A DNA stretch of 38,402 nucleotides from a virus: IMG/VR virus record IMGVR_UViG_3300009151_004678, positions 1-38,402 of that record; one strand, 5' to 3'. Made by a program: the position numbers and the translations under genes. The first letter of the stretch is position 1. Each line of letters begins with the position of its first letter. The notes under the pieces were generated by a model, which made no database searches, was not told the origin of the DNA, and saw nothing but the letters and a program-made list of their open reading frames with translations. Shown here piece after piece: positions 15,764 to 37,824 of this stretch.

Positions 15764-17320
15764 ATGATATTTGGTTTTAGCATCCTGGCCACAGCAATCT
15801 TACTCAGTTGCGTGGCCGCTTATTATTCTGTAGCAGGCTTAACAGCCATCTTCAGTGCGGCAACCATACCAGTTATCATCATGGGTGGCAGTCTAGAACT
15901 AGGCAAAATTGTGGCCACTGTATGGTTGCACAATAATTGGAAACGTGCTGGAATCTTGTTCAAAGCATATCTAGTGCCTGCGGTAGCGTTCCTAATGCTG
16001 TTGACATCAATGGGCATTTTTGGCTATCTCTCCAAGGCCCATTCAGATCAAAGCCTAGTGTCAGGTGATGCAGTAGCAAAGGTAGCAATCTACGATGAAA
16101 AGATCAAGATATCTCGTGACAATATTGAAGCCGACCGCCGGGCACTTAAACAGATGGATGAGGCTGTGGACCAAGTTATGGGCCGATCAGCAGATGAAAA
16201 AGGTGCCGACAAAGCAGTTGCAATACGAAGAGGCCAGCAACGAGAACGGTCTAGGATACTTGCTGACATCGAAGCCGAACAGAAAAAGATTACTGGTCTT
16301 AATGAAGAACGGGCGCCATTAGCGGCCGAGTTCCGCAAGGTTGAGTCAGAAGTAGGACCAATCAAGTACATTGCGGCCTTGGTGTATGGCGACAATCCTG
16401 ACTCAAATGTACTAGAACGTGCTGTACGACTTGTGATCATCATGATTGTGCTGGTGTTTGACCCGCTAGCCCTTACCTTAATTCTAGCCGCCAACAAACA
16501 ATTTCAATGGGCAAGAGAAGGCACCGGAGGCTTTGTACACGACGAGCCCAAGTACGATCCCGACAATGGTCCATTAACTGAGGACCAAATAGAACAAATA
16601 AAAGTGTCAGTGCCAGAACCACCCGATGATCCTATACCTTGCTACAAATGTGGTACACCATTGGTTGACGCTCCGGGCATTGGCCTGTTCTGCCCCAACA
16701 AGGAATGTGATGTTATAGACAATGTCAACGGTGAAGAACCTGTTAAGTTTGCACCAATTGAAATTGAATACAAGTTTGTAGACGAACACCACGAATCTGA
16801 TTATGCTCCAGCCCTTCACGTGTACGATGATGAACGACTGGTATCAAAGTTTGACAAGATACAGGCGATTGAGCCACCAGACGATGAACTTGACGATGAT
16901 GACGATGACGAAATCAAGATTGCTATTAAAAAATGGAAGACTGCCAACCCTGATGATACCATAAAGAATCAACGCTACAAGTTTATGCGTGGAGAAATAT
17001 CCGAATTGCCTTGGATGGGACTTGTGGCTGATAACACAGGCGGTAGAGAAAGCCGCAGTGGTTTTGGTATTAGTTTCCCCGAAACTCCCAACAAAGGTGA
17101 TACCTTTGTACGAGTAGACGTTATGCCTAGTGCGGTTTACAAGTACAACGGAACAAACTGGATGGCTGTTGACAAAAACCTAAGCGACAGTTATACTTAC
17201 GACTCAGCTTATATAGAACACCTGATAGATAAAATAAGTACTGGTGAATATGATCCGGACTTGTTGAGTGATAGTGAACGTCAACAAGTAGCAAATTACT
17301 TACAAACAAAACAATCCTAA
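15764..17320 (+). CDS. Membrane coiled-coil protein with a zinc ribbon
   Basis: A 518-residue protein. Three membrane helices fill residues 1-90, a long charged coiled coil runs from about 105 to 200, and a fourth membrane helix lies at about 221-243. A CYKCG...FCPNKEC ribbon (Cys293, 296, 310, 315) could bind zinc. An acidic run of Asp follows (about 372-382). The C-terminal 100 residues have a GGRESRSGFGISFPETPNKGD segment like a small virion beta domain. Proteins with this layout are found in T4-like phages of planktonic bacteria. Function unknown. It may act at the inner membrane. It ends in a TAATG overlap with clpX. Confidence 0.75.
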   Translation: MIFGFSILATAILLSCVAAYYSVAGLTAIFSAATIPVIIMGGSLELGKIVATVWLHNNWKRAGILFKAYLVPAVAFLMLLTSMGIFGYLSKAHSDQSLVSGDAVAKVAIYDEKIKISRDNIEADRRALKQMDEAVDQVMGRSADEKGADKAVAIRRGQQRERSRILADIEAEQKKITGLNEERAPLAAEFRKVESEVGPIKYIAALVYGDNPDSNVLERAVRLVIIMIVLVFDPLALTLILAANKQFQWAREGTGGFVHDEPKYDPDNGPLTEDQIEQIKVSVPEPPDDPIPCYKCGTPLVDAPGIGLFCPNKECDVIDNVNGEEPVKFAPIEIEYKFVDEHHESDYAPALHVYDDERLVSKFDKIQAIEPPDDELDDDDDDEIKIAIKKWKTANPDDTIKNQRYKFMRGEISELPWMGLVADNTGGRESRSGFGISFPETPNKGDTFVRVDVMPSAVYKYNGTNWMAVDKNLSDSYTYDSAYIEHLIDKISTGEYDPDLLSDSERQQVANYLQTKQS

Positions 17321-18534
17321 TGAAATCTAACGAATCAATCAACACTTGTAGTTTTTGCGGTAAACACAAAGATGCGGTGGCCAAACTCATAGTGGGCGAA
17401 CAAGTTGCAATCTGCAACGAATGCGTAGAGCTCTGTGAGACCTTGCTTCACGATGAAAACATAATCAAACCCACAGAGGCCGTAGATCTTGACCCAGAGT
17501 TGATTAAAGAGCATTTGGATCAATATGTGATTGGTCAGGACCGAGCCAAGCAGGTGCTAAGTGTAGCAGTGGTCAATCACTACAAACGTATTACTAATCC
17601 CAGCCCTGAAGTAGAAGTCGAGAAGTGTAATATTCTCATGCTTGGTCCAACAGGCTCGGGCAAAACATTGTTGGCCAAGACTGTGGCACGTTATCTAGAT
17701 GTGCCATTTGTTATTGCAGATGCTACCAGCTTGACCGAAGCCGGTTATGTGGGTGATGACGTAGAAAGTTTAATTTCTAGATTATTTGCGGCCGCAGGCG
17801 GCGACATTGCTAAAACCCAACGTGGTATTGTGTTCATTGACGAAATTGATAAAATTAGCCGTCGTAGCGAGAGTGCCAGTATCACCCGAGATGTATCCGG
17901 AGAAGGCGTCCAACAGGCCTTGCTTAAATTGGTAGAAGGTACCAAGTGCAGAGTCACTCCCACAGGAAGTCGCAAGCATCCTTCAGGGGACATGATTGAG
18001 ATCGATACCACCAACATCTTGTTTATTGCTGGTGGTGCGTTTGTTGGCTTGGACAATGTGGTTAAAAATCGTGTACAGGGAACCAGCATTGGTTTTGGTG
18101 CTAAAATTAAAAATGGCGCCATAACACATTTGGATCAAACTACCCCTGAAGATTTGATCAAGTTTGGTATGATTCCAGAGTTTGTGGGACGTTTTCCTAG
18201 TTGGGTAGCACTTAGCGAACTTAACAAAGAAGATTTAATCCGTATTTTGCTAGATGTCAAACACAGTTATATAGAACAGTATAATTGGTTGTTTGGGCAG
18301 GACAAAGTAGAACTAGAATTCTCATCCGACGCCTTGGAAATGATTGCAGATCGCACTATTCTAAACAAAACTGGCGCCCGAGGTTTGCATAGCGAACTAG
18401 AACGTGTGCTATTACCCCATATGTTCTATTTGGCCCGTTATCGTAGAGAAGGTATTAACCACGTGTTTATTGACGCAGATCAGGTAAATACTCCTACAGA
18501 ATTAAAGGAAGCCAATGCAAAAGCTCAGGGGTAG
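17320..18534 (+). CDS. clpX: ClpX, ATPase of the ClpXP protease
   Basis: Unfolds tagged proteins and feeds them to ClpP. At 404 residues it is near full length. The N-terminal zinc domain (Cys10, Cys13, Cys32, Cys35), Walker A GPTGSGKT (109-116), pore loop GYVG (142-145), Walker B VFIDEID (171-177) and sensor-2 [10 protein letters not shown] are all present. The ClpP-docking IGFG loop is kept (257-260), so it should bind a ClpP ring, either the host's or the phage ClpP at 37243. It is linked by a one-base overlap to the upstream gene and overlaps the bS21 gene by 20 nt. Confidence 0.96.
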
Positions 18535-18829: not shown

Positions 18830-19282
18830 ATGACAAAAACTCTCACCCTTCGTTCTTTCGATATTCCCGCACTTCACAAATTTGGTATCGGTTTCGATAA
18901 CATGTTTGATGATCTCATGCGTGTGAGTACTCAGCAGTCTACTTCAAACTACCCACCCTACAACATTGTGCAAATCAATGAAGATGAGTACATGATCAGT
19001 CTTGCTGTGGCCGGCTTTGGGCTTGATAATCTTTCAGTTACCAAGGACAAAAAGTTCTTGATCATTGAAGGCAAAGAGTATCACCCTGACAGTGAAAAGA
19101 TTGAGCCAAACTACTTGCACAAAGGTATCAGCAACAGAGATTTCCGCAGAGAATTCCAACTTGCAGATCACGTGGAAATCAGTAATGCACACCTTGAACT
19201 TGGTATCTTGAGCGTTCACTTAAAGCGTGAAGTGCCAGAAGACGCCAAACCAAAGACTATTGCTATCACCTACACAGTGTAA
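18830..19282 (+). CDS. Small heat-shock protein Hsp20
   Basis: A 150-residue alpha-crystallin-type chaperone of the IbpA class that holds unfolding proteins. A short N-terminal region with FDNMFDDLMR is followed by the alpha-crystallin domain from about residue 44 (YNIVQINEDEYMISLAVAGF, then LSVTKDKKFLIIEGKE, then DFRREFQLADHVEI and AHLELGILSVHLKRE). The tail ends in ITYTV. Such genes are common in T4-like phages. Its leader may be a temperature switch. It lies between bS21 and ClpS, in a protein-quality cluster. Confidence 0.94.
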   Translation: MTKTLTLRSFDIPALHKFGIGFDNMFDDLMRVSTQQSTSNYPPYNIVQINEDEYMISLAVAGFGLDNLSVTKDKKFLIIEGKEYHPDSEKIEPNYLHKGISNRDFRREFQLADHVEISNAHLELGILSVHLKREVPEDAKPKTIAITYTV

Positions 19283-25123: not shown

Positions 25124-25152
25124 TTGACATAAAATAGCAGATCGTTTATAAT
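25124..25152 (+). promoter_or_regulatory. Consensus sigma70 promoter giving a probable leaderless uvdE
   Basis: TTGACA at 25124-25129, a 17-nt spacer and TATAAT at 25147-25152. Only 6 nt separate TATAAT from the ATG at 25159, so transcription would begin on or next to the start codon. There is no Shine-Dalgarno. Confidence 0.85.
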
Positions 25153-25158
25153 AAACAC

Positions 25159-26190
25159 ATGACTACACCCCAAATTGGCTTTTGTTGCAAATGGCTCAAT
25201 GACCCCGCAGAATGTGGGGGCATGAAAGTCAATGCAAAGGACCGTGACTTAACCGGCAGATCAACCACCATGCGTTGGCTTCGCGAGCACAAGAGCGAAG
25301 CTGAACAGCGGCAATGGGATATTATGAACCACAATGCCTCGGCCGCTGTACGACTGATCGAGCGTGTGGCCACACTGCCCCAAGGCCGTAGAATGGTACG
25401 CCTGGGCAGTGAAATGCTACAAGGCTACACTGAGAAAGATTGGATCGACTGGTGGCAACGCCGTGAAATACAAGATCACTGTGAAAAGATATTTGCCCCT
25501 GTAGGTGAAACTGCTCGCAGGCTTGGTGTTAGACTCAGTTTCCACCCCGGACAGTTCTGTGTGCTTGCAAGCGAGTCGGATGAAATTGTAGAACGTAGCA
25601 TACTAGAATTTGAATACCATGCGGACATGGCTCGTTGGATGGGCTATGGCTCAACGTGGCATGATCATGGATTTAAGATTAACGTGCATTTATCGGGCAA
25701 AGGTGGTCCCGCTAAATTCCTGAAGACCCTGGGTCGCCTCACTCCCGAGGCCAGGAACTTGATAACCATCGAAAATGACGAGATGACAAATGGACTTGAC
25801 ACTACTTTGGCTGTGGCTGATCATGTGGCTCTTGTGTTGGATGTACACCACCACTGGATCAACACCGGCGAATACATCGCGCCCACGGACGTTCGTACAA
25901 CTAGGGTTATTGACTCTTGGCGTGGCGTTCGTCCTGCAATGCATTTTAGTACTAGCCGCGAGGACGTTTTGGTCGACCATGTTCGAACAGTTCGACCAGA
26001 CCTTGCTGAACTTCTTGCTAGAGGTTATAAGAAACAGAAACTCCGAGCACACAGCGACTTCTGTTGGAATACGTCTGTGAATTCATGGGTACTGGGTTTT
26101 GCTGACCAGTTTGATATACAGGTAGAAGCCAAGGGCAAAAACTTAGCAAGTGAACAACTTTATGAACAATATATTTCTCAACATCTTTGA
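25159..26190 (+). CDS. UV damage endonuclease UvdE/UvsE
   Basis: Nicks DNA 5' to UV photoproducts and other lesions to start repair. The 343 residues form the UvdE TIM barrel with metal-binding segments in order: RLSFHPGQFCVLAS near 128-141, an ENDE near 198-201, DVHHHW near 221-226 and HSDFCWN near 301-307. Useful for a virus of sunlit water. It has a near-perfect promoter and apparently no 5' leader. Its 3' end overlaps the next gene by 29 nt. Confidence 0.93.
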   Translation: MTTPQIGFCCKWLNDPAECGGMKVNAKDRDLTGRSTTMRWLREHKSEAEQRQWDIMNHNASAAVRLIERVATLPQGRRMVRLGSEMLQGYTEKDWIDWWQRREIQDHCEKIFAPVGETARRLGVRLSFHPGQFCVLASESDEIVERSILEFEYHADMARWMGYGSTWHDHGFKINVHLSGKGGPAKFLKTLGRLTPEARNLITIENDEMTNGLDTTLAVADHVALVLDVHHHWINTGEYIAPTDVRTTRVIDSWRGVRPAMHFSTSREDVLVDHVRTVRPDLAELLARGYKKQKLRAHSDFCWNTSVNSWVLGFADQFDIQVEAKGKNLASEQLYEQYISQHL

Positions 26191-26449
26191 TTGGATACGC
26201 AGTGATTACAAAACTAACCCACTTAGGTTCGTCGTGGAAGTACTGGCTTGGGCTGTGTCTATTGGGTGCAGTATTACGATGGCTGCCACTGTACCTAATC
26301 CCCCTCTTGTGGTACTTTACCCTATATGGATTAGTGGTTGTGCTATGTATGCTTGGGCTAGTTGGACTCGTAAATCGTTTGGTATGTTGGCCAACTACTG
26401 CCTACTAGTCAGCATTGATACTGTGGGTTTGCTACGTATGATTTTGTAA
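26162..26449 (+). CDS. Small conserved multi-pass membrane protein
   Basis: A 95-residue protein from the ATG at 26162; a GTG at 26150 is also in frame. LNIFDWIRSDYKTNPLRFVVEVLAWAVSIG and a TVPNPPLVVLYPIWISGCAMYAWASW segment, each with a hydrophobic helix, plus a third near the end, suggest three membrane passes. The pattern recurs in T4-like phages of planktonic bacteria and faintly recalls nicotinamide-type transporters, too weak to name. Its stop falls inside the Pho box of pstS. Confidence 0.72.
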   Translation: MNNIFLNIFDWIRSDYKTNPLRFVVEVLAWAVSIGCSITMAATVPNPPLVVLYPIWISGCAMYAWASWTRKSFGMLANYCLLVSIDTVGLLRMIL

Positions 26450-26461
26450 CAAAATTGTAAC
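26444..26461 (+). promoter_or_regulatory. Pho box upstream of pstS
   Basis: Two identical 7-mers TTGTAAC (26444-26450 and 26455-26461) with an AAAA spacer, an 11-nt period. This is the layout of PhoB boxes (7-mer, 4 A/T, 7-mer). It lies 11 nt before a TAAATA and directly upstream of a phosphate-binding gene. A nearly identical box precedes plcP at the same distance. Confidence 0.72.
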
Positions 26462-26471
26462 ACAAATTAGC

Positions 26472-26478
26472 CTAAATA
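26472..26478 (+). promoter_or_regulatory. CTAAATA element of the pstS promoter
   Basis: TAAATA at 26473-26478, 11 nt after the Pho box, where a PhoB-dependent promoter has its -10 element. It also matches the late-type motif found elsewhere. A 23-nt stretch with the ribosome site AAGGAG leads to the GTG at 26502. Confidence 0.6.
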
Positions 26479-26501: not shown

Positions 26502-27506
26502 GTGAAACAATTATTTGCAATCTTACTAGCGTCAATATCAATCTCAGCATCAGCACAGACTATAACAGGTGCTGGCGCAACATTCCCATACCCCATCTAT
26601 AGCAAGTGGTCAGAACTTTACAACAAAGAAACTGGCGTAGCACTCAATTACCAATCAATTGGTTCCAGTGGCGGCATTCGTCAAATTGATGCCAAAACAG
26701 TGACCTTTGGTGCAACTGATGCACCTGTAGCCGGGGACAAACTAGACAAAAATAGTCAAGTACAGTTTCCCGCTATCATTGGCGGAACAGTTCCTATTGT
26801 TAACTTGGATGGCTTCAAGCCCGGAGAACTACGTATTACAGGTCCTGTAATGGCAGAAGTGTTCTTGGGTGAAATCTCCAAATGGAATGATCCAAAGTTG
26901 GCGGCACTTAACCCAGGTAAAAAATTACCTGACTTAGAAATTACTATTGTGCATCGTGCAGATGGTTCGGGTACTACATTTAACTGGACAGATTATTTGT
27001 CATCTACCAGCGCCAAGTGGGCCGACAAGGTTGGCAAAGGTGCCGCAGTCAAGTGGCCAGCCGCAAGTTCAGTAGGTGGCAAGGGCAACGAAGGTGTTGC
27101 CGCTAATGTACATCGTGTTAAAGGCTCCATTGGCTATGTTGAATATGCTTATGTTAAAAAGAACAATTTGACTTTCTTGCAATTACAAAACAAGTCAGGC
27201 AAATATGTCAGCCCAGATGATCTAACATTTGCTGCCGCGGCAGCCGGTGCTGATTGGTTCTCAGTTCCTGGTATGGGTGTGAGCATTGTAGATCAGCGTG
27301 GTGATACAGTATGGCCTGTAAGCACAGCCAGTTTCATCATCATGTACAAAGACCCCACAGACAAGAAAGCCAGCCAAGACACATTGAAGTTCTTTGATTG
27401 GGCATTCAAGAACGGTAAGAAAGCCGCAGAGGAATTAGACTATGTGGCATTACCAGACATTCTAACAAAACAAATTCGCGAGCGTGTGTGGAGTCAGATC
27501 AAGTAA
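26502..27506 (+). CDS. pstS: Phosphate-binding protein PstS
   Basis: Periplasmic binding protein of the high-affinity phosphate ABC transporter. The 334 residues start at GTG behind AAGGAG and a signal peptide (1-19). Mature sequence ITGAGATFPYPIYSKW, the SSGGIRQI segment, FGATDAP and HRADGSGTTFNW are PstS hallmarks that contact phosphate. Phage pstS genes are known to raise phosphate uptake in starved hosts. A Pho box upstream agrees with control by host PhoB. A strong terminator ends the unit, so it is monocistronic. Confidence 0.96.
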   Translation: MKQLFAILLASISISASAQTITGAGATFPYPIYSKWSELYNKETGVALNYQSIGSSGGIRQIDAKTVTFGATDAPVAGDKLDKNSQVQFPAIIGGTVPIVNLDGFKPGELRITGPVMAEVFLGEISKWNDPKLAALNPGKKLPDLEITIVHRADGSGTTFNWTDYLSSTSAKWADKVGKGAAVKWPAASSVGGKGNEGVAANVHRVKGSIGYVEYAYVKKNNLTFLQLQNKSGKYVSPDDLTFAAAAAGADWFSVPGMGVSIVDQRGDTVWPVSTASFIIMYKDPTDKKASQDTLKFFDWAFKNGKKAAEELDYVALPDILTKQIRERVWSQIK

Positions 27507-27554
27507 TTAAACCGACCACAACGATAGAGTGGCGCTGGAACTCGTAACCAGCAG

Positions 27555-27583
27555 ATACCCCAAATTTTTGGGGTATTTTTTTG
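27555..27583 (+). terminator. Rho-independent terminator of pstS
   Basis: ATACCCC (27555-27561) pairs with GGGGTAT (27570-27576), with AAA/TTT extending the stem, followed by a T-run. It lies 48 nt after the pstS stop. Confidence 0.93.
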
Positions 27584-27787: not shown

Positions 27788-28446
27788 AACCCACCATAGC
27801 CCTATTTTTGCACGACCCCAAATGTAGTGTACAAAGTGGCAATGGGCTCATGCGAGCCCTAGGCGATCATTACAAGTTCAAAATATTTGGTAAAAACAAA
27901 CTAGAAGATGTGTTCTTTGACGACGTAGACATGATTGCTGTACCCGGTGGCTTTGGCGATGCTGATTCATTTGACGGACTGTTCAAACACAATGCTGAAC
28001 GTGTGCAACAATTTCTAGAACGTGGCGGTCGATACTTGGGTATTTGCATGGGTGCATACTGGGCCGGCAGCGAATATCTCAACATCTTGGATGGTGTGGA
28101 TGCTGTGCAGTATATCCGTCGCCCTGGCACAGACACACATAGACCACATGCTAAAAACCTGCCTGTGTTGTGGCAAGATCGTTGGGGCAATATTGAGCCC
28201 TGGAAAATGTTCTTTTACGATGGCTGTGCATTGGTAGGGGACAAAACCAAGTTTCGAACCATGGCCACATATATGAATGGAGACGCCATGGCAATTATAC
28301 AAAACAATATTGGACTGATAGGTTGTCATCCTGAAAGCGAGCAGTTCTGGTATGACAGTTACTCCTGGATGCGGGGTCGATATCATAGAGGTCAACATCA
28401 TACATTGTTGTTAGACTTTGTGGATCAAATGTTTGTAACAAAATAG
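27784..28446 (+). CDS. Class I glutamine amidotransferase-like protein (BPL_N type)
   Basis: A 220-residue protein with the flavodoxin-like amidotransferase fold. A MIAVPGGFGDADSF segment (about 50-63), the nucleophile Cys88 in YLGICMGAYWAG, and a His-x-Glu (GCHPESE near 181-187) complete a triad. Members of the BPL_N group lie next to biotin-ligase-like or uncharacterised genes and few have known reactions. The partner synthetase is not evident here. Its stop lies inside the Pho box of plcP. Confidence 0.78.
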   Translation: MKPTIALFLHDPKCSVQSGNGLMRALGDHYKFKIFGKNKLEDVFFDDVDMIAVPGGFGDADSFDGLFKHNAERVQQFLERGGRYLGICMGAYWAGSEYLNILDGVDAVQYIRRPGTDTHRPHAKNLPVLWQDRWGNIEPWKMFFYDGCALVGDKTKFRTMATYMNGDAMAIIQNNIGLIGCHPESEQFWYDSYSWMRGRYHRGQHHTLLLDFVDQMFVTK

Positions 28447-28450
28447 TAAC
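28433..28450 (+). promoter_or_regulatory. Pho box upstream of plcP-agt
   Basis: TTGTAAC (28433-28439), AAAA, TAGTAAC (28444-28450), the same 11-nt period as the pstS box with one base changed. Both boxes are followed by ACA-AT, then by GCCTAAATA at the same distance. It overlaps the 3' end of the preceding gene. Confidence 0.68.
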
Positions 28451-28460
28451 ACAGATCCGC

Positions 28461-28467
28461 CTAAATA
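28461..28467 (+). promoter_or_regulatory. CTAAATA element of the plcP promoter
   Basis: TAAATA at 28462-28467, 11 nt after the Pho box and 4 nt before the ATG at 28472. It serves as the likely -10 of a PhoB-type promoter and gives a leaderless plcP message. No Shine-Dalgarno. Confidence 0.58.
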
Positions 28468-28471
28468 TTAG

Positions 28472-29266
28472 ATGCAGAAAACGTATCGCAGTATTTTTAT
28501 CAGTGATGTACACCTGGGCACAAGAGACTGCAAGGCAGAAGAACTAAACAATTTCCTAAAGCACAACTCCTGCAATACTTTATATCTTGTGGGGGACATT
28601 ATTGATGCTTGGAAAATGCAACAAAACAAATTGCGATGGAAACAAAGTCATACCAACGTTGTCCGTAGGGTTCTTGGTCACGCTAAACGTGGCACTAGGG
28701 TTGTATACGTGGCTGGAAATCATGACGAATTCCTGCGTCCGATGATACCGTATGCTGCCACATTTGGTACTGTGGAAATATGTAATCAATGCGAACATGT
28801 GGGTGCAGACGGCAAACATTATCTTGTGGTGCATGGCGACCTGTTTGATGGTATCACCCGACTGGCACCATGGTTGAGTTTTTTGGGAGACAAAGCATAT
28901 GATTTTATCCTGGGGCTTAATAGTAGATTTAATTGGATCCGCCATCGTATGGGTTTTGGTTATTGGAGTCTTAGCCAGTTTCTTAAGCATAGGGTCAAAA
29001 AAGCCATTGACTTCATGTTTCACTTTGAAAGAAACCTTGCGGCCTACTGCAAAAAAAGAGGATTTGATGGCGTGGTCTGCGGTCACATACACCACGCAGA
29101 AATAAAAGAAATAAACGGTGTAGTATATATGAATGACGGCGACTGGGTTGAAAGTTGTACTGCACTTGTAGAACATCATGACGGGCGTTGGGAAATCGTA
29201 ACATGGACACAAAAAAATGACCAAGAAGATATTGATAATAACAGACAACTTGCCGGATCAAATTAA
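28472..29266 (+). CDS. plcP: PlcP-type phospholipase C (metallophosphoesterase)
   Basis: Cleaves phospholipid head groups to leave diacylglycerol during phosphate starvation. The 264 residues show the family's metal motifs in order: SDVHLG (Asp12, His14), GDIID (Asp42), AGNHDEF (81-87), VHGDLFD (His121) and CGHIHH (203-208), then the DGDWVESCTALVEHHDGRWEI ending typical of PlcP rather than LpxH. Databases often label such proteins UDP-2,3-diacylglucosamine diphosphatase. The downstream gene is the matching glycosyltransferase and the Pho box upstream fits the known PhoB control. The lipase role is by family, not shown here. Confidence 0.85.
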   Translation: MQKTYRSIFISDVHLGTRDCKAEELNNFLKHNSCNTLYLVGDIIDAWKMQQNKLRWKQSHTNVVRRVLGHAKRGTRVVYVAGNHDEFLRPMIPYAATFGTVEICNQCEHVGADGKHYLVVHGDLFDGITRLAPWLSFLGDKAYDFILGLNSRFNWIRHRMGFGYWSLSQFLKHRVKKAIDFMFHFERNLAAYCKKRGFDGVVCGHIHHAEIKEINGVVYMNDGDWVESCTALVEHHDGRWEIVTWTQKNDQEDIDNNRQLAGSN

Positions 29267-30230
29267 TGGCGTGGTTACCACTTACAAGAACATTGAGGCT
29301 TGTGCGGTACTGGATGGTTATCATGTTGATTATATTGATCCCGGGCGGTTCCGCTACATTAATTGCCCTCGCTACCACGAAGTCAAGATTGCCTATCCCC
29401 GGAATCTGGGCGCGAAGATTGAGGAGATTGCTCCGGATTATATCCACATCGCCACCGAGGGTCCTCTTGGTTTGTGGGCTCGAGCATATCTTTCACTGGG
29501 CAATATTCGTCACAATACCGCTTATCATACTAAGTTTCCAGAGGGACTTAAGAAACTATTTGGGATTCCTGAATTCGTAACCTGGCGGTTTGTACGCTGG
29601 TTTCACAAACACTCAGGCAAGGTACTAACCACGACAGATTCAATGGTTCGAGAATTGCAAGCACATGGATTCAATGGCGAAGTGATTCCGTGGACACGTG
29701 GTGTTGACCGTGAGATATTCCACCCTGGCTATCGTGATCGAGAAGATGACCACAAAATATTATTATGCGTTGCCCGTGTGAGTAAAGAAAAGAACTTGGA
29801 AGACTTTTTTGAATTACAATATCCCAAGAGTCGCAAAATCATGGTAGGTGATGGCCCTATGCTAGAGAAATATCGAAAGCAGTATCCTGATGTGGAGTTT
29901 GTAGGATTTAAGACAGGCACAGAACTAGCAGAATATTATGCCAATGCTGATGTGTTTGTGTTTCCAAGTCAGTGGGAAACATTTGGCATTGTGATGATTG
30001 AAGCCATGGCCTGTGGTACCCCTGTAGCCGCATATCCATGCCAAGGTCCCGAAGATGTTGTGGAACCAGGTGTGACTGGTTATTTAGAACAAGATCTAGC
30101 CACTGCGGTGCATCGTTGTATCGGGCTCAACAGGGACCAAGTATTAGAGGGCAGCCAACGCTGGAGTTGGGAACGAGCCTGGCACATATTCCGAGACAAT
30201 CTCACTCCCAACCACTTGTGGACCAAATAA
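29217..30230 (+). CDS. agt: Agt-type glycosyltransferase for glycolipid synthesis
   Basis: A 337-residue GT4-type glycosyltransferase. N-terminal ILIITDNLPDQINGVVTTY, the IATEGPLGLWARAY segment (78-91), AYHTKFPE (102-109), TRGVDREIFHP (160-170), GDGP (211-214) and the E-x7-E pair (Glu254, Glu262) are all present. In bacteria Agt adds glucose or a uronate to the diacylglycerol that PlcP makes, replacing phospholipids with glycolipids. It overlaps plcP by 50 nt and is very likely co-translated. The UDP-sugar dehydrogenase at 22033 could supply a uronate donor, but that link is a guess. Confidence 0.82.
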   Translation: MTKKILIITDNLPDQINGVVTTYKNIEACAVLDGYHVDYIDPGRFRYINCPRYHEVKIAYPRNLGAKIEEIAPDYIHIATEGPLGLWARAYLSLGNIRHNTAYHTKFPEGLKKLFGIPEFVTWRFVRWFHKHSGKVLTTTDSMVRELQAHGFNGEVIPWTRGVDREIFHPGYRDREDDHKILLCVARVSKEKNLEDFFELQYPKSRKIMVGDGPMLEKYRKQYPDVEFVGFKTGTELAEYYANADVFVFPSQWETFGIVMIEAMACGTPVAAYPCQGPEDVVEPGVTGYLEQDLATAVHRCIGLNRDQVLEGSQRWSWERAWHIFRDNLTPNHLWTK

Positions 30231-30248: not shown

Positions 30249-30857
30249 ATGAAAGAAATACTACAAACACTTCGCGAGCAACGTTGGGACGATCATCGTT
30301 ACTATCATCACAGTAGAATCAATCAATTTTTACACTTAATCTCAGCCTTAAGTTTCTTGATTGCCTATGTTTATCTGTTTATTGATCCTGTTGTGAGTGC
30401 ATGGATTGCTTGGTTGATTGCCATGACTACTCGTCAAGCCGGGCACTTTTTCTTTGAACCACACGGCTACGATGAATACAACAAGGCCACATTTGAACAC
30501 AAAGAAAAAATCAAAATTGGTTTTAACTTAAAACGCAAACGGGTGTTGCTCACATGCTGGGTCGCAGTGCCTGCCCTGGCGTTCTTTGATGCTGAACTAA
30601 TGAATCTGTTAATACCCAACAACGACCCAATGACATTTGTAAACCGTGTGGGTATGGGATGGTTATGGCTGGGTGCGGCTGGTGTGTTGTTTAGAATGAT
30701 CCAATTGACCGCACTACAGAGCAGACGGGTTGCGTTAGTTTGGTGCTTGAAGATCTTGACTGATCCATTTCACGATGTATGGATCTATCGCAAGAGTCCC
30801 ATATACTTGATGCAAGGACAGTTGATTGACCCTGATTTACGTCAAGATTACTCTTGA
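30249..30857 (+). CDS. Integral membrane protein, Mpo1/DUF962-like (tentative)
   Basis: A 202-residue membrane protein. Three to four hydrophobic helices are visible (about 28-65, 97-112, 135-155). The GHFFFEPHGYDEYNKA segment after the second helix has the GHxxxEP look of DUF962 proteins, and KILTDPFHDVWIYRKSP follows near 175-191. Yeast Mpo1 in that family is an iron-dependent lipid oxygenase, but the match is loose. Its site between agt and a desaturase suggests a lipid role. It has the ribosome site AAAGGAAA and overlaps the convergent desaturase by 10 nt. Confidence 0.6.
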   Translation: MKEILQTLREQRWDDHRYYHHSRINQFLHLISALSFLIAYVYLFIDPVVSAWIAWLIAMTTRQAGHFFFEPHGYDEYNKATFEHKEKIKIGFNLKRKRVLLTCWVAVPALAFFDAELMNLLIPNNDPMTFVNRVGMGWLWLGAAGVLFRMIQLTALQSRRVALVWCLKILTDPFHDVWIYRKSPIYLMQGQLIDPDLRQDYS

Positions 30858-31558
30858 TTGCGAAGTCTAGCAAGTCCTAGTATTCTAAACAGGCTGAGCC
30901 ACATCCAGCCTATATCGAATTCCCACCAAGTCTTAGAGAGGCGGGCACTCGCTGGTGCCAGGTGGTGGTTGTTGTGCAGTTCTTCGCCGCCAATAACAAT
31001 GCCCCAAGGACTAATATTACGACTACGATCTTTAGTTTCGCCATTTCTATATCCTATCCAATGTCCAATGCCGTTTATGACTCCAGCCGCCCAGAATGGA
31101 ATCCATATCATTTGTATACCCCATATAACCGGACCCCACCAACCAAACACTAGGGTGTTGAGCACAAGGAGAATGCCAATGCCAAGTCTACTGTGAGGCT
31201 GGTATATGTGAAGCTCCATCCAATCAGCAGGAGTACCAACACCGTATGCGTCAACCATGACACGATCTTTTGATGCTTCATGATACAGTACCGCTCCTTT
31301 AAAGAAAACTCTCTTGATTCCGTACACGTGAGGTGAGTGCGGATCACCTTCTGCATCACTGAATCTGTGATGCTTGCGGTGTATGGCCACCCATTGCTTG
31401 GTTACCATGCCTGTGGTCAACCATAACCAGGCTCTCATGAAGTGTTCAAGCACAGGATGAAATTCTATACCTCGGTGTGCTTGGCCACGATGTAGGTACA
31501 ACGTGACACAGATGATAGTAATGTGTGTCATTACCAGTGTTGCGATTAGTTCTGTCAT
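30848..31558 (-). CDS. Fatty-acid (acyl-CoA type) desaturase
   Basis: Introduces a double bond into acyl chains, using a di-iron centre. The 236 residues carry all three histidine boxes: His23-RGQA-His28, H60-RK-H63-H64 (HRKHH) and H195-NN-H198-H199, plus four membrane helices. Phages of planktonic bacteria carry such genes, and the neighbouring PlcP-Agt pair makes a membrane-lipid island likely. A TAAATA sits 4 nt before the ATG and there is no Shine-Dalgarno. It is opposite in direction to agt. Confidence 0.9.
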   Translation of the reverse strand: MTELIATLVMTHITIICVTLYLHRGQAHRGIEFHPVLEHFMRAWLWLTTGMVTKQWVAIHRKHHRFSDAEGDPHSPHVYGIKRVFFKGAVLYHEASKDRVMVDAYGVGTPADWMELHIYQPHSRLGIGILLVLNTLVFGWWGPVIWGIQMIWIPFWAAGVINGIGHWIGYRNGETKDRSRNISPWGIVIGGEELHNNHHLAPASARLSKTWWEFDIGWMWLSLFRILGLARLRNQE

Positions 31559-33726: not shown

Positions 33727-33732
33727 TATTTA
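33727..33732 (-). promoter_or_regulatory. TAAATA late-type element with a leader (minus strand)
   Basis: TTAAATACTC on the minus strand overlaps the stop of the upstream transporter gene. It lies 17 nt before the ATG at 33709 with AGGAG between. Confidence 0.48.
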
Positions 33733-34350
33733 ACCCTGATCGGTGTTGCCCAAACGCTTCTTCATGAAGTTCAAAAGCAAGCCGTATGCTGGCAAGAACA
33801 CAACAAAGCCAACTAAAATCTTCAATAGACTTTGGCTCAGGGCAATCTCGGGCCAGTTAGCGGCCATGTACTCGTCAGCACCACCCGAGAAGGCAATACT
33901 GAAGAACACATAACTGTCGATGAAGTTGGCAACAACCATGCTGAGTGCAGGAGCCGCCCACCATTGCTGTGTGAACTTTTCGCGAACATATTGGAACACG
34001 TATACATCTAACAAGCAACCAATTAGGTATGCTGTGGCTGATCCAAAACCAATACGTAAGGCAACTGATTGTGGTGCGCCTTCTAAGAGAACAACAGCAA
34101 TACTACCAATGATGGCAAGTGGATAGGCAGCCGCAATAGTGGCTCGAGCAATACCTTTACCAATCAATCGTACTGTCAAGTCTGTAGCCAAAATTACCAA
34201 GGGATAGGTAAATGCGGCCCATGTCAATTTCACACCCATGATCTCAACTGGAATTGAAACTAGAGCATTGCTGATTACGATCACGAAGATATGTAATGCA
34301 ACCAATTTGGCCATCATGACCCGATCTACGCCTTTGAAAATATCAAACAT
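33730..34350 (-). CDS. Queuosine-precursor transporter (YhhQ/VUT family)
   Basis: A 206-residue six-helix protein of the VUT/YhhQ family, which imports 7-deazaguanine precursors such as preQ0 for queuosine. ILATDLTVRLIGKGIARATI (about 53-72) and ANFIDSYVFFSIAFSGG (about 140-156) are typical. Phages can use such precursors to modify their DNA with deazaguanine or to support tRNA modification. No queuosine-synthesis or DNA-modification gene is visible in this window, so the use is unknown. The ribosome site AAAGGAG precedes the ATG at 34350. Confidence 0.85.
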   Translation of the reverse strand: MFDIFKGVDRVMMAKLVALHIFVIVISNALVSIPVEIMGVKLTWAAFTYPLVILATDLTVRLIGKGIARATIAAAYPLAIIGSIAVVLLEGAPQSVALRIGFGSATAYLIGCLLDVYVFQYVREKFTQQWWAAPALSMVVANFIDSYVFFSIAFSGGADEYMAANWPEIALSQSLLKILVGFVVFLPAYGLLLNFMKKRLGNTDQG

Positions 34351-37242: not shown

Positions 37243-37824
37243 ATGATCATGCCAATAATTGAAACTACCCAAACTGAACAAACTCACACTCAAGCACTTG
37301 CTGACACTGGCATGTATGTTTTTATGGGAGACGTGGATGATGAAAGTATCAAGCCAGTTGTGGAATGGATGCTGTATGAAAACTATGTGAGCAAGAAAAA
37401 GAAAAAAGAATTGTTACTCATGATTTGCTCCAATGGTGGAGACATGGGTGCGGCCTTTGCCCTAATTGATGTAATGATGAGCAGCCAAATTCCAGTAAAA
37501 ACTGTGGGCCTGGGAACCATTGCATCAGCAGGCTTGTTGATCTTTATCTCTGGCACTCACGGACGACGAGTTCTTACACCTAATACTTCAATTCTAAGCC
37601 ATCAGTTCTCCTGGTACAACGAAGGCAAAGCACATGAGTTGTTTGCTACCATGCGTGAGTTTGAACTCACACAGGCTAGAATGATTGCACACTATGAATT
37701 GTGTACAGGCCTGGGCCGGGAAGAAATACGCACGAACTTGTTGCCACCACAAGACGTTTGGTTATCAGCATCAGAAGCCCTGGCTCTGGGCATCTGCGAT
37801 GACATCAGTGTGGTCAAGAGTTAA
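37243..37824 (+). CDS. clpP: ClpP-like serine protease
   Basis: Proteolytic partner of ClpX or ClpA. The 193 residues keep the ClpP core: oxyanion segment ICSNGGDMGAA (61-71), catalytic Ser95 in GTIASAGLLIF, His120 in SILSHQFSW, and Asp171 in PPQDVWLSASEAL. The N-terminal part is shorter and Thr/Gln-rich. A second ATG at 37249 is possible. There is no Shine-Dalgarno. It lies 18.7 kb from clpX yet would match its IGF loop. Whether it forms its own ring or mixes with host ClpP is not evident. Confidence 0.88.
   Translation: MIMPIIETTQTEQTHTQALADTGMYVFMGDVDDESIKPVVEWMLYENYVSKKKKKELLLMICSNGGDMGAAFALIDVMMSSQIPVKTVGLGTIASAGLLIFISGTHGRRVLTPNTSILSHQFSWYNEGKAHELFATMREFELTQARMIAHYELCTGLGREEIRTNLLPPQDVWLSASEALALGICDDISVVKS

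Follow-up and report, generated by a model that had tools for sequence, protein, structure and literature searches.

The replacement of phospholipids by glycolipids through the enzymes PlcP and Agt is a well-known bacterial pathway. For Phaeobacter MED193, Candidatus Pelagibacter HTCC7211 and Pseudomonas aeruginosa (genes PA3219-PA3218), excerpts of the published reports describe the same two enzyme families and the same gene order as in the locus analysed here, with a Pho box upstream, as is also predicted for this locus (PMC4796936, PMC8528852, PMC8231724). The version described here is viral: the locus lies in virus record IMGVR_UViG_3300009151_004678, a stretch of 38,402 nucleotides (nt) that we call the window, and comprises two open reading frames (ORFs):

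28472-29266, + strand: PlcP ORF, 264 amino acids (aa); metallophosphoesterase of the bacterial PlcP (phospholipase C) type
29217-30230, + strand: GT4 glycosyltransferase ORF, 337 aa; Agt/GTcp type

The two ORFs share positions 29217-29266 in different frames, which is the 50-nt overlap described in an earlier note on this DNA, and overlaps of identical size were found in ten other IMG/VR loci (L001-L006, L008, L009, L012 and L014). All motifs quoted in that note are present in the translations, i.e., SDVHLG, GDIID, AGNHDEF, HGD, GHIHH and WVESCTALVEHHDGRWEI in PlcP, and TDNLPDQINGVV, TEGPLGLWARAY, TRGVD and E254-x7-E262 in the glycosyltransferase. In a profile search of the window proteins, PlcP matched Metallophos with an E-value of 5e-12 and GT4 matched Glycos_transf_1 with an E-value of 1.5e-27; therefore, the match of the two genes is not a matter of chance. 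The proposal that they form a PlcP-Agt pair is supported by their gene families, by phylogenetic trees and by their linkage in other viruses. The Pho-box-like repeats, the neighbouring PstS and desaturase genes and the wide occurrence of the pair, all described below, go beyond what the note had noticed. We consider it probable that the window carries a phage-borne pathway of lipid renovation, under the control of the phosphate-starvation response of the host, which converts phospholipids to glycolipids.

Identity of the metallophosphoesterase

The window PlcP matches PF00149 and presents the active-site motifs of metallophosphoesterases. Across 47 phage and 41 bacterial PlcP rows, the active-site positions 12, 14, 42, 83, 84, 121, 205 and 207 are invariant, and D45 and D85 are kept in all but one row. 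The bacterial relatives considered were the best 80 of at least 591, with 50-58% identity, and the window protein is 50-58% identical (268-309 bits) to the 41 bacterial rows. In the available part of PMC8528852, PA3219 is reported to be 47% identical to the Phaeobacter PlcP; thus, the phage PlcP is no more distant from bacterial PlcPs than accepted PlcPs are from one another.

The similarity to LpxH is much lower. Compared with eight LpxH sequences, the window PlcP showed 21-26% identity over short stretches (23-37 bits), and two LpxH models gave it 48.4 and 35.4 bits, against curated cut-offs of 134 and 190. The PlcP tree, like all trees in this work, was of the quick kind, with support from the Shimodaira-Hasegawa-like approximate likelihood ratio test (SH-aLRT) only. 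It held 97 rows (47 phage, 41 bacterial PlcP, 1 Bacteroidetes-like and 8 LpxH from PlcP-carrying genomes), obtained after removal of rows shorter than 200 aa and k-mer thinning (249 to 96); relatives from the genus Pseudomonas were included, in a data set without PA3219, MED193_17359 and PB7211_983 themselves. A branch with support 100 divided the eight LpxH rows from all the others. Hence, by both scores and tree, the grouping with LpxH that the earlier note named as a possible refutation is not what we observed. Two phage rows with very long branches, S-SRM01 (L083) and LR756511 (L376), are placed with little certainty in this tree.

Additionally, the motif GNHD, present in the phage and bacterial PlcP rows (GNHE in one phage row), is replaced by GNRD in all eight LpxH rows. 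Among 15 PlcP-carrying bacterial genomes, eight encode an LpxH above the cut-off, separate from PlcP. The same genomes gave 13 weaker LpxH-model matches of 27-56 bits, and the four of these whose coordinates were compared (L140, L125, L146 and L088) coincide with the PlcP loci. As expected for a PlcP, a putative gene for the synthesis of phosphorus-free lipids adjoins it, namely the overlapping GT4. The window metallophosphoesterase is of the PlcP type, and manganese-dependent phospholipase C activity is predicted from its sequence.

Identity of the glycosyltransferase

The glycosyltransferase tree comprised 93 rows and joined 39 phage GT4s with 29 GT4s adjacent to bacterial plcP in one clade (support 99), so that the glycosyltransferase groups with Agt-type enzymes and not with other GT4s; the Agt type is represented in this tree by the plcP-adjacent GT4s, without a characterised Agt sequence. 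Outside the clade fall all 23 other GT4s from six PlcP-carrying genomes, as well as two GT4s located 3.5-5 kb from plcP. The sister group consists of L189, L139 and L145, one of them from the 23 other GT4s. Rows shorter than 280 aa had been removed before k-mer thinning (223 to 90), and L190, L192, L194 and L202 were excluded from the final tree as duplicates of the plcP-adjacent enzymes from these genomes. Pairwise comparisons agree with the tree: the window GT4 is 37-47% identical (202-279 bits) to the 29 plcP-adjacent rows, and no true outsider scored above 157 bits. The second possible refutation in the earlier note, a glycosyltransferase grouping with capsule or lipopolysaccharide enzymes, was addressed by this tree, and the outcome favours the Agt reading.

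According to the available part of PMC8231724, the Pelagibacter enzyme GTcp is inactivated by mutation of G16, G82, G85, H104, R163, R190, K195, T257, F258, G259, E264 or W320. Based on motifs and offsets, without the GTcp sequence itself, we mapped these positions to G18, G82, G85, H104, R161, R187, K192, T255, F256, G257, E262 and W318 of the window protein, where all the residues are present. The phage rows vary at two of these positions, with Lys in place of R161 in 8 of 39 and Tyr in place of F256 in 4 of 39. The window glycosyltransferase thus appears to be of the Agt type, and transfer of a sugar to diacylglycerol is its predicted activity.

Linkage of PlcP and a glycosyltransferase in viruses and bacteria

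A recurrent pair in phage genomes was among the checks proposed in the earlier note, and the pair indeed recurs in IMG/VR, in which 207 of 208 stretches with PlcP pattern matches encode a PlcP relative. We analysed the 80 viral PlcP loci nearest to the window (set A) and the 80 nearest to a Pelagibacter phage PlcP (set M); the viral sets, including the reciprocal ones below, are the best 80 of 207, 109, 351 and 414 relatives and overlap in contigs. Within 1.3 kb downstream of PlcP, set A has 40 GT4, 37 GT2 and 3 contig ends, and set M has 45 GT4, 14 GT2, 12 with neither and 9 contig ends. Thus, a glycosyltransferase is next to PlcP in 77 of 77 resolvable loci of set A and 59 of 71 of set M, that is, in 136 of 148 resolvable viral loci (GT4 in 85, the unrelated GT2 in 51). 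When the 160 viral PlcPs are grouped at 90% identity, 48 of the 57 resulting clusters have a glycosyltransferase partner (GT4 only, 37; GT2 only, 7; both kinds, 3; GT4 or neither, 1), six have neither and three are unresolved.

The association also holds in the reciprocal direction. Starting from GT4, PlcP lies directly upstream in 78 of 80 loci, and in the remaining two the contig starts within 400 nt of a desaturase gene that precedes GT4. Starting from GT2, PlcP lies upstream in 79 of 80 loci, the last one being at a contig start. GT2 matches TIGR04283 below its cut-off; none of the 80 bacterial PlcP loci had a match to it nearby, and homologs with E-values up to 1e-10 occurred in only 2 of 120 genomes of a bacterial family with plcP-agt, at 28-29% identity. 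Since this unrelated enzyme occupies the same place as GT4, PlcP seems to require a glycosyltransferase, although not GT4 in particular. Other glycosyltransferases after plcP have also been described in bacteria, as stated in the accessible sections of PMC4796936.

Three variations in the organisation of these loci were observed. Six of the 80 loci of set A contain a RimK-like ATP-grasp gene, which lies between PlcP and GT4 whenever both are visible. Genes resembling GIY-YIG homing endonucleases were noticed by eye between PlcP and GT4 in L011, L013 and L030. IMGVR_UViG_3300023243_000078 (L064, L279) has two different PlcP loci approximately 5.4 kb apart, each followed by GT2.

In bacteria, GT4 lies within 450 nt after PlcP in 43 of 80 PlcP loci. 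The 120 genomes mentioned above were drawn from a single family, that of genome G137; a PlcP match with an E-value of at most 0.001, in some cases weak, was found in 90 of them, and an Agt-type GT4 (E-value of at most 1e-40) in 44. By coordinates, PlcP and GT4 are side by side in 40 of these 44 genomes, including one convergent pair and one pair with a gap of 846 nt. G137, G240, G255 and G323 show no such pair, the last two being on split contigs.

Viral origin of the locus

No terminase was found among the proteins of the 38,402-nt window alone. The same region is contained in a 142,901-base IMG/VR contig (L001), in which nine window proteins were found, all 100% identical. This contig encodes a terminase (PF03237), and so do 11 of 16 virus records inspected for one. 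On these grounds, the PlcP-glycosyltransferase locus is phage-borne. Additionally, the window encodes a phage-type ribonucleotide reductase.

One record was rejected as viral. MT836169.1 (L084), from human faeces and labelled 'Bacteriophage sp.', is a bacterial chromosome by its genes, with ORFs read as TyrRS, polyphosphate kinase and exopolyphosphatase; its PlcP-like gene is followed by an apparent other glycosyltransferase and by polyphosphate genes. It was kept as a labelled row in alignment A1 and in the trees, and was not counted as phage.

Upstream elements of pstS and plcP

A gene for the phosphate-binding protein PstS precedes plcP in the window, and both genes have a similar arrangement of sequence elements upstream:

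26444-26461, + strand: Pho-box-like direct repeat TTGTAACAAAATTGTAAC, 11-bp period, before pstS
26473-26478, + strand: TAAATA promoter-like element, 11 nt after the pstS repeat
26502-27506, + strand: PstS, phosphate ABC transporter substrate-binding protein (NF008171, 386 bits; cut-off 339)
27553-27578, + strand: terminator-like hairpin and T-run after pstS, from a consensus scan in which such sites are no commoner than in shuffles
28433-28450, + strand: Pho-box-like direct repeat TTGTAACAAAATAGTAAC before plcP
28462-28467, + strand: promoter-like element TAAATA, separated from the plcP repeat by 11 nt and from the start codon of plcP by only 4 nt

The terminator-like hairpin after pstS suggests that plcP needs a promoter of its own. 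Within the window, TTGTAACNNNNTNGTAAC is matched exactly by the repeats before pstS and plcP and nowhere else, and TGTCAC or TGTCAT versions of the repeat precede PlcP in some relatives. Based on these sequences, we defined the pair TGTMAY-N5-TGTMAY, whose letters M and Y were picked after viewing them. Redundancy among similar upstream sequences was reduced and short ones were dropped (80 to 50 in set A, 80 to 51 in set M), with upstream starts taken from the start of the match and not from mapped transcripts. The pair was present in 18 of 50 PlcP upstream regions of set A and, of the viral PstS upstream regions, in 11 of 18, compared with 2 of 1193 upstream regions of other ORFs in the same loci. 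Fisher values for these counts are not taken as probabilities, since they assume independence among sequences that are related. The window plcP repeat itself falls outside this strict pattern because its second half-site is AGTAAC.

The spacing of the elements is also constrained. When half-sites in set A occur 6-25 apart, the distance is exactly 11 in 18 of 20 cases, and no spacing between half-site and TAAATA was seen other than 11-12, 21-22, 32-33 and 41. In the 143-kb L001 contig, the single match to TGTMAYN5TGTMAY lies before pstS. Of 14 matches in 15 whole virus contigs, six lie just before plcP or pstS (G016, G020, G022, G024 twice and G029). Among bacteria, the same kind of pair is present in 5 of 6 pstS upstream regions; half-sites 22 apart were found in 14 of 78 PlcP upstream regions, and the exact 11-bp pair in none of the 78. 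We regard the repeats before pstS and plcP as putative Pho boxes, for which binding of PhoB is predicted.

TAAATA appears to be a general promoter element of these phages, since it is common upstream of their genes (185 of 1234 ORFs near the start, 37 of 1234 further up). It may resemble the late promoters of T4. The distance from TAAATA to the start codon is 10-14 nt in 34 of 41 PlcP upstream regions of set A, whereas it is 27-37 nt in 10 of 11 PstS upstream regions. A distance of 10-11 nt before ATG is also the commonest in other ORFs (59 of 197 having TAAATA), as if many transcripts of these phages were leaderless.

For a conserved protein with the sequence MRLEDLAARLVAVEAKL (L042:7797, L353:5026, L437:3754 and L446:3348), TGTMAY half-sites likewise precede TAAATA by 11 or 22 nt; by this pattern, its gene is another candidate for phosphate regulation in phages.

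Proposed pathway and alternatives

On infection of a phosphate-starved host, PhoB would activate pstS and plcP-agt. PlcP would then split phospholipids into diacylglycerol and a phosphorylated head group, the latter to be processed further by the host, and Agt would transfer a sugar from a UDP-sugar onto the diacylglycerol, by which the membrane would remain intact. The freed phosphorus may enter nucleotide and DNA synthesis, with PstS sustaining uptake, and the desaturase and Mpo1-like genes described below possibly tune the acyl chains. Tentatively, and with somewhat less than even confidence, we extend this proposal to many phages, which would turn the phospholipid membrane of the living host into glycolipid for the sake of their DNA, using hybrid promoters of PhoB sites and phage late-type TAAATA elements that would couple phage transcription to the nutrient sensing of the host, with PlcP as the core and either GT4 or GT2 for the second step.

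Several observations weigh against the proposed pathway. The first concerns its chemistry, as PlcP would yield phosphorylated head groups and not free phosphate. The second concerns the glycosyltransferase, in which Glu254 occupies the position of the catalytic Asp256 of GTcp; this position is Asp in 20 and Glu in 19 of the 39 phage rows, and Asp in 28 and Glu in 1 of the 29 bacterial rows. The change D256E in GTcp is reported in the accessible text of PMC8231724 to have lost more than 90% of the activity. The window GT4 is therefore classed as a variant branch of the Agt/GTcp clade and not as a plain member. Glu254 is the main sequence-level caution on the Agt assignment, and it may reflect the use of a different sugar donor or an active site that compensates for the change.

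Linkage is also incomplete: 12 of the 71 resolvable set M loci have neither GT4 nor GT2 adjoining PlcP, 37 of the 80 bacterial PlcP loci have no GT4 next door, and PstS was seen in only 12 of 160 viral PlcP loci, within their limited flanks. Regarding regulation, the Pho box, given in the available part of PMC8528852 as two 7-mers with an 11-bp period, CTGTCATNNNNCTGTCAT, was not matched before pstS or plcP at up to three mismatches in a strict scan of the window, which gave 3 matches against 5.4 expected. The intact TGTMAY pair occurs in only 4 of 51 set M upstream regions, and the 15 whole virus contigs contain 14 matches compared with 12 for the reversed pattern, which is no excess; hence, only the placement of the repeat counts in its favour. 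Predicted Pho boxes were also unreliable in a cyanophage, as reported in the accessible portion of PMC10976474. Finally, if TAAATA is a -10 element, transcription of plcP would start at the initiation codon or within it, and the message would be leaderless.

The main rival is a benefit in membrane properties, which is compatible with the same chemistry: the remodelling of lipids would be real and would serve to block superinfection, to protect the cell, or to aid assembly or lysis. According to the available excerpts, PlcP-Agt glycolipids shield P. aeruginosa from polymyxin B (PMC8528852) and the ability to remodel lipids alters its membrane proteins (PMC9804370); the desaturase seen in 27 of the 80 loci of set A points the same way. 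Nevertheless, the Pho-box-like repeats before both pstS and plcP and the presence of PstS in the same window speak for phosphate, and we consider a purely different benefit unlikely.

Less plausible still, and in our judgement improbable, is that the glycosyltransferase acts on another acceptor, such as phage DNA, a virion protein or a polyprenyl carrier, with PlcP as a general phosphodiesterase. This reading draws on the breadth of the GT4 family, on the Glu in place of the Agt Asp and on the phages in which PlcP is paired with the GT2 instead. The placement in the Agt clade and the strict partnership with PlcP argue otherwise, as does the presence in the window of H104, T160, R161 and W318, modelled to bind diacylglycerol in GTcp, even though Lys takes the place of this Arg in 8 of 39 phage rows; additionally, no DNA glucosyltransferase family was found among the Pfam or PHROGs matches.

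We rejected the possibility that PlcP is an LpxH and its partner a lipopolysaccharide (LPS) or capsule enzyme, so that the pair would modify the cell surface (receptor). This function is suggested by the annotations under which the homologs of Mosig and S-SRM01 were deposited and by the weak LpxH profile match, and it is very improbable given the scores far below the cut-offs, GNHD instead of the GNRD of all eight LpxH rows, both trees, and the separate LpxH genes above the cut-off in 8 of 15 genomes. Misbinned bacterial DNA or a one-off acquisition, suggested by the absence of a terminase from the window alone and by the bacterial nature of the 'phage' record L084, can practically be dismissed for this locus in view of the terminases on the larger contig of the same phage and in the other examined records, the phage-type ribonucleotide reductase and hundreds of viral relatives.

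Neighbouring genes

The window PstS is 76% identical to the PstS of bacterial genome G137. In that genome (G137:C1:2525305-2532402), a GT4 relative (40%) lies approximately 5 kb from the pstS that is nearest to the phage PstS. Downstream of the glycosyltransferase gene, two further genes are possible accessories of the pathway:

30249-30857, + strand: Mpo1-like protein, possible accessory (PF06127, E-value 3.3e-4, under the cut-off)
30848-31558, - strand: DesA-like fatty acid desaturase, also a possible accessory (388 bits with NF049918, slightly below the cut-off of 400)

Relatives of the Mpo1-like protein (53-55%) are encoded at L139:10943-11527 and L145:5041-5625, divergently from the sister-group GT4 and within approximately 5 kb of plcP. 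As these relatives adjoin the sister-group GT4 in two bacterial plcP loci, there is a hint of a role for the Mpo1-like gene in lipid renovation. Relatives of the desaturase occur in 3 of the 80 loci of set M, besides the 27 of set A noted above.

Elsewhere in the window, a queuosine-precursor transporter-like protein (33730-34350) scored over the TIGR00697 cut-off, and ClpX-like (17320-18534), ClpP-like (37243-37824) and small heat-shock-like (18830-19282) proteins were recognised by ORF reading. A perfect promoter-like site, TTGACA-17-TATAAT, is located at 25124-25152, just before an ORF at 25159.

Comparison with known systems

Phage phosphate genes known to us act on uptake or on nucleotides. 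We found no phage version of the PlcP-Agt pathway in the open-access literature (open-licence papers, preprints excluded). To this extent, the statement in the earlier note that no such phage system had been described stands, although phage PlcP homologs had already been deposited as LpxH. Of 50,697 deposited phage records, five match PlcP, two of which are the same S-SRM01 genome, one a bacterial contamination and one a distant match (27%). The S-SRM01 PlcP has no directly adjoining glycosyltransferase, with several at least approximately 5.5 kb upstream, and the 30 deposited phage records matching GT4 have no accession in common with those matching PlcP. A table of auxiliary genes from Lake Baikal lists a viral lpxH, as far as the accessible part of PMC9611531 goes, and some 'lpxH' entries in tables of this kind may be PlcP.

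If the proposed pathway is true, it would be, with respect to the open-access literature, the first viral pathway that recovers phosphorus from the host membrane via a complete two-step replacement, tied to the starvation signal of the host and present in many environmental phages. The proposal predicts infected cells rich in glycolipids, which can be measured.

The cyanophages P-SSM2 and S-PM2d carry PstS and other PhoBR-controlled genes; their cyanobacterial consensus differs from the repeats of the window, and no lipid pathway is described there, the word 'lipid' being absent from the main text of the report (PMC10976474).

As to lipids, a 2018 paper by Roitman reportedly deals, going by its title, with cyanophage lipid desaturases. 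These would likewise be phage-borne genes for membrane lipids, of which the window also has one, the DesA-like desaturase; unlike the window pathway, they would alter acyl chains without replacing the phosphate head group.

The Pelagibacter phage Mosig EXVC030M has a PlcP 48% identical to that of the window, beside a gene for a phosphate-binding protein. It is annotated as a putative UDP-2,3-diacylglucosamine hydrolase and, unlike in the window, no glycosyltransferase is next to it.

Finally, the viral locus departs from the bacterial PlcP-Agt pathway in being carried by a phage, in its overlapping genes, in a TGTAAC-type repeat phased to TAAATA, in the Glu that replaces the catalytic Asp of Agt and, among its viral relatives, in the replacement of GT4 by GT2 in 51 of 148 resolvable loci.

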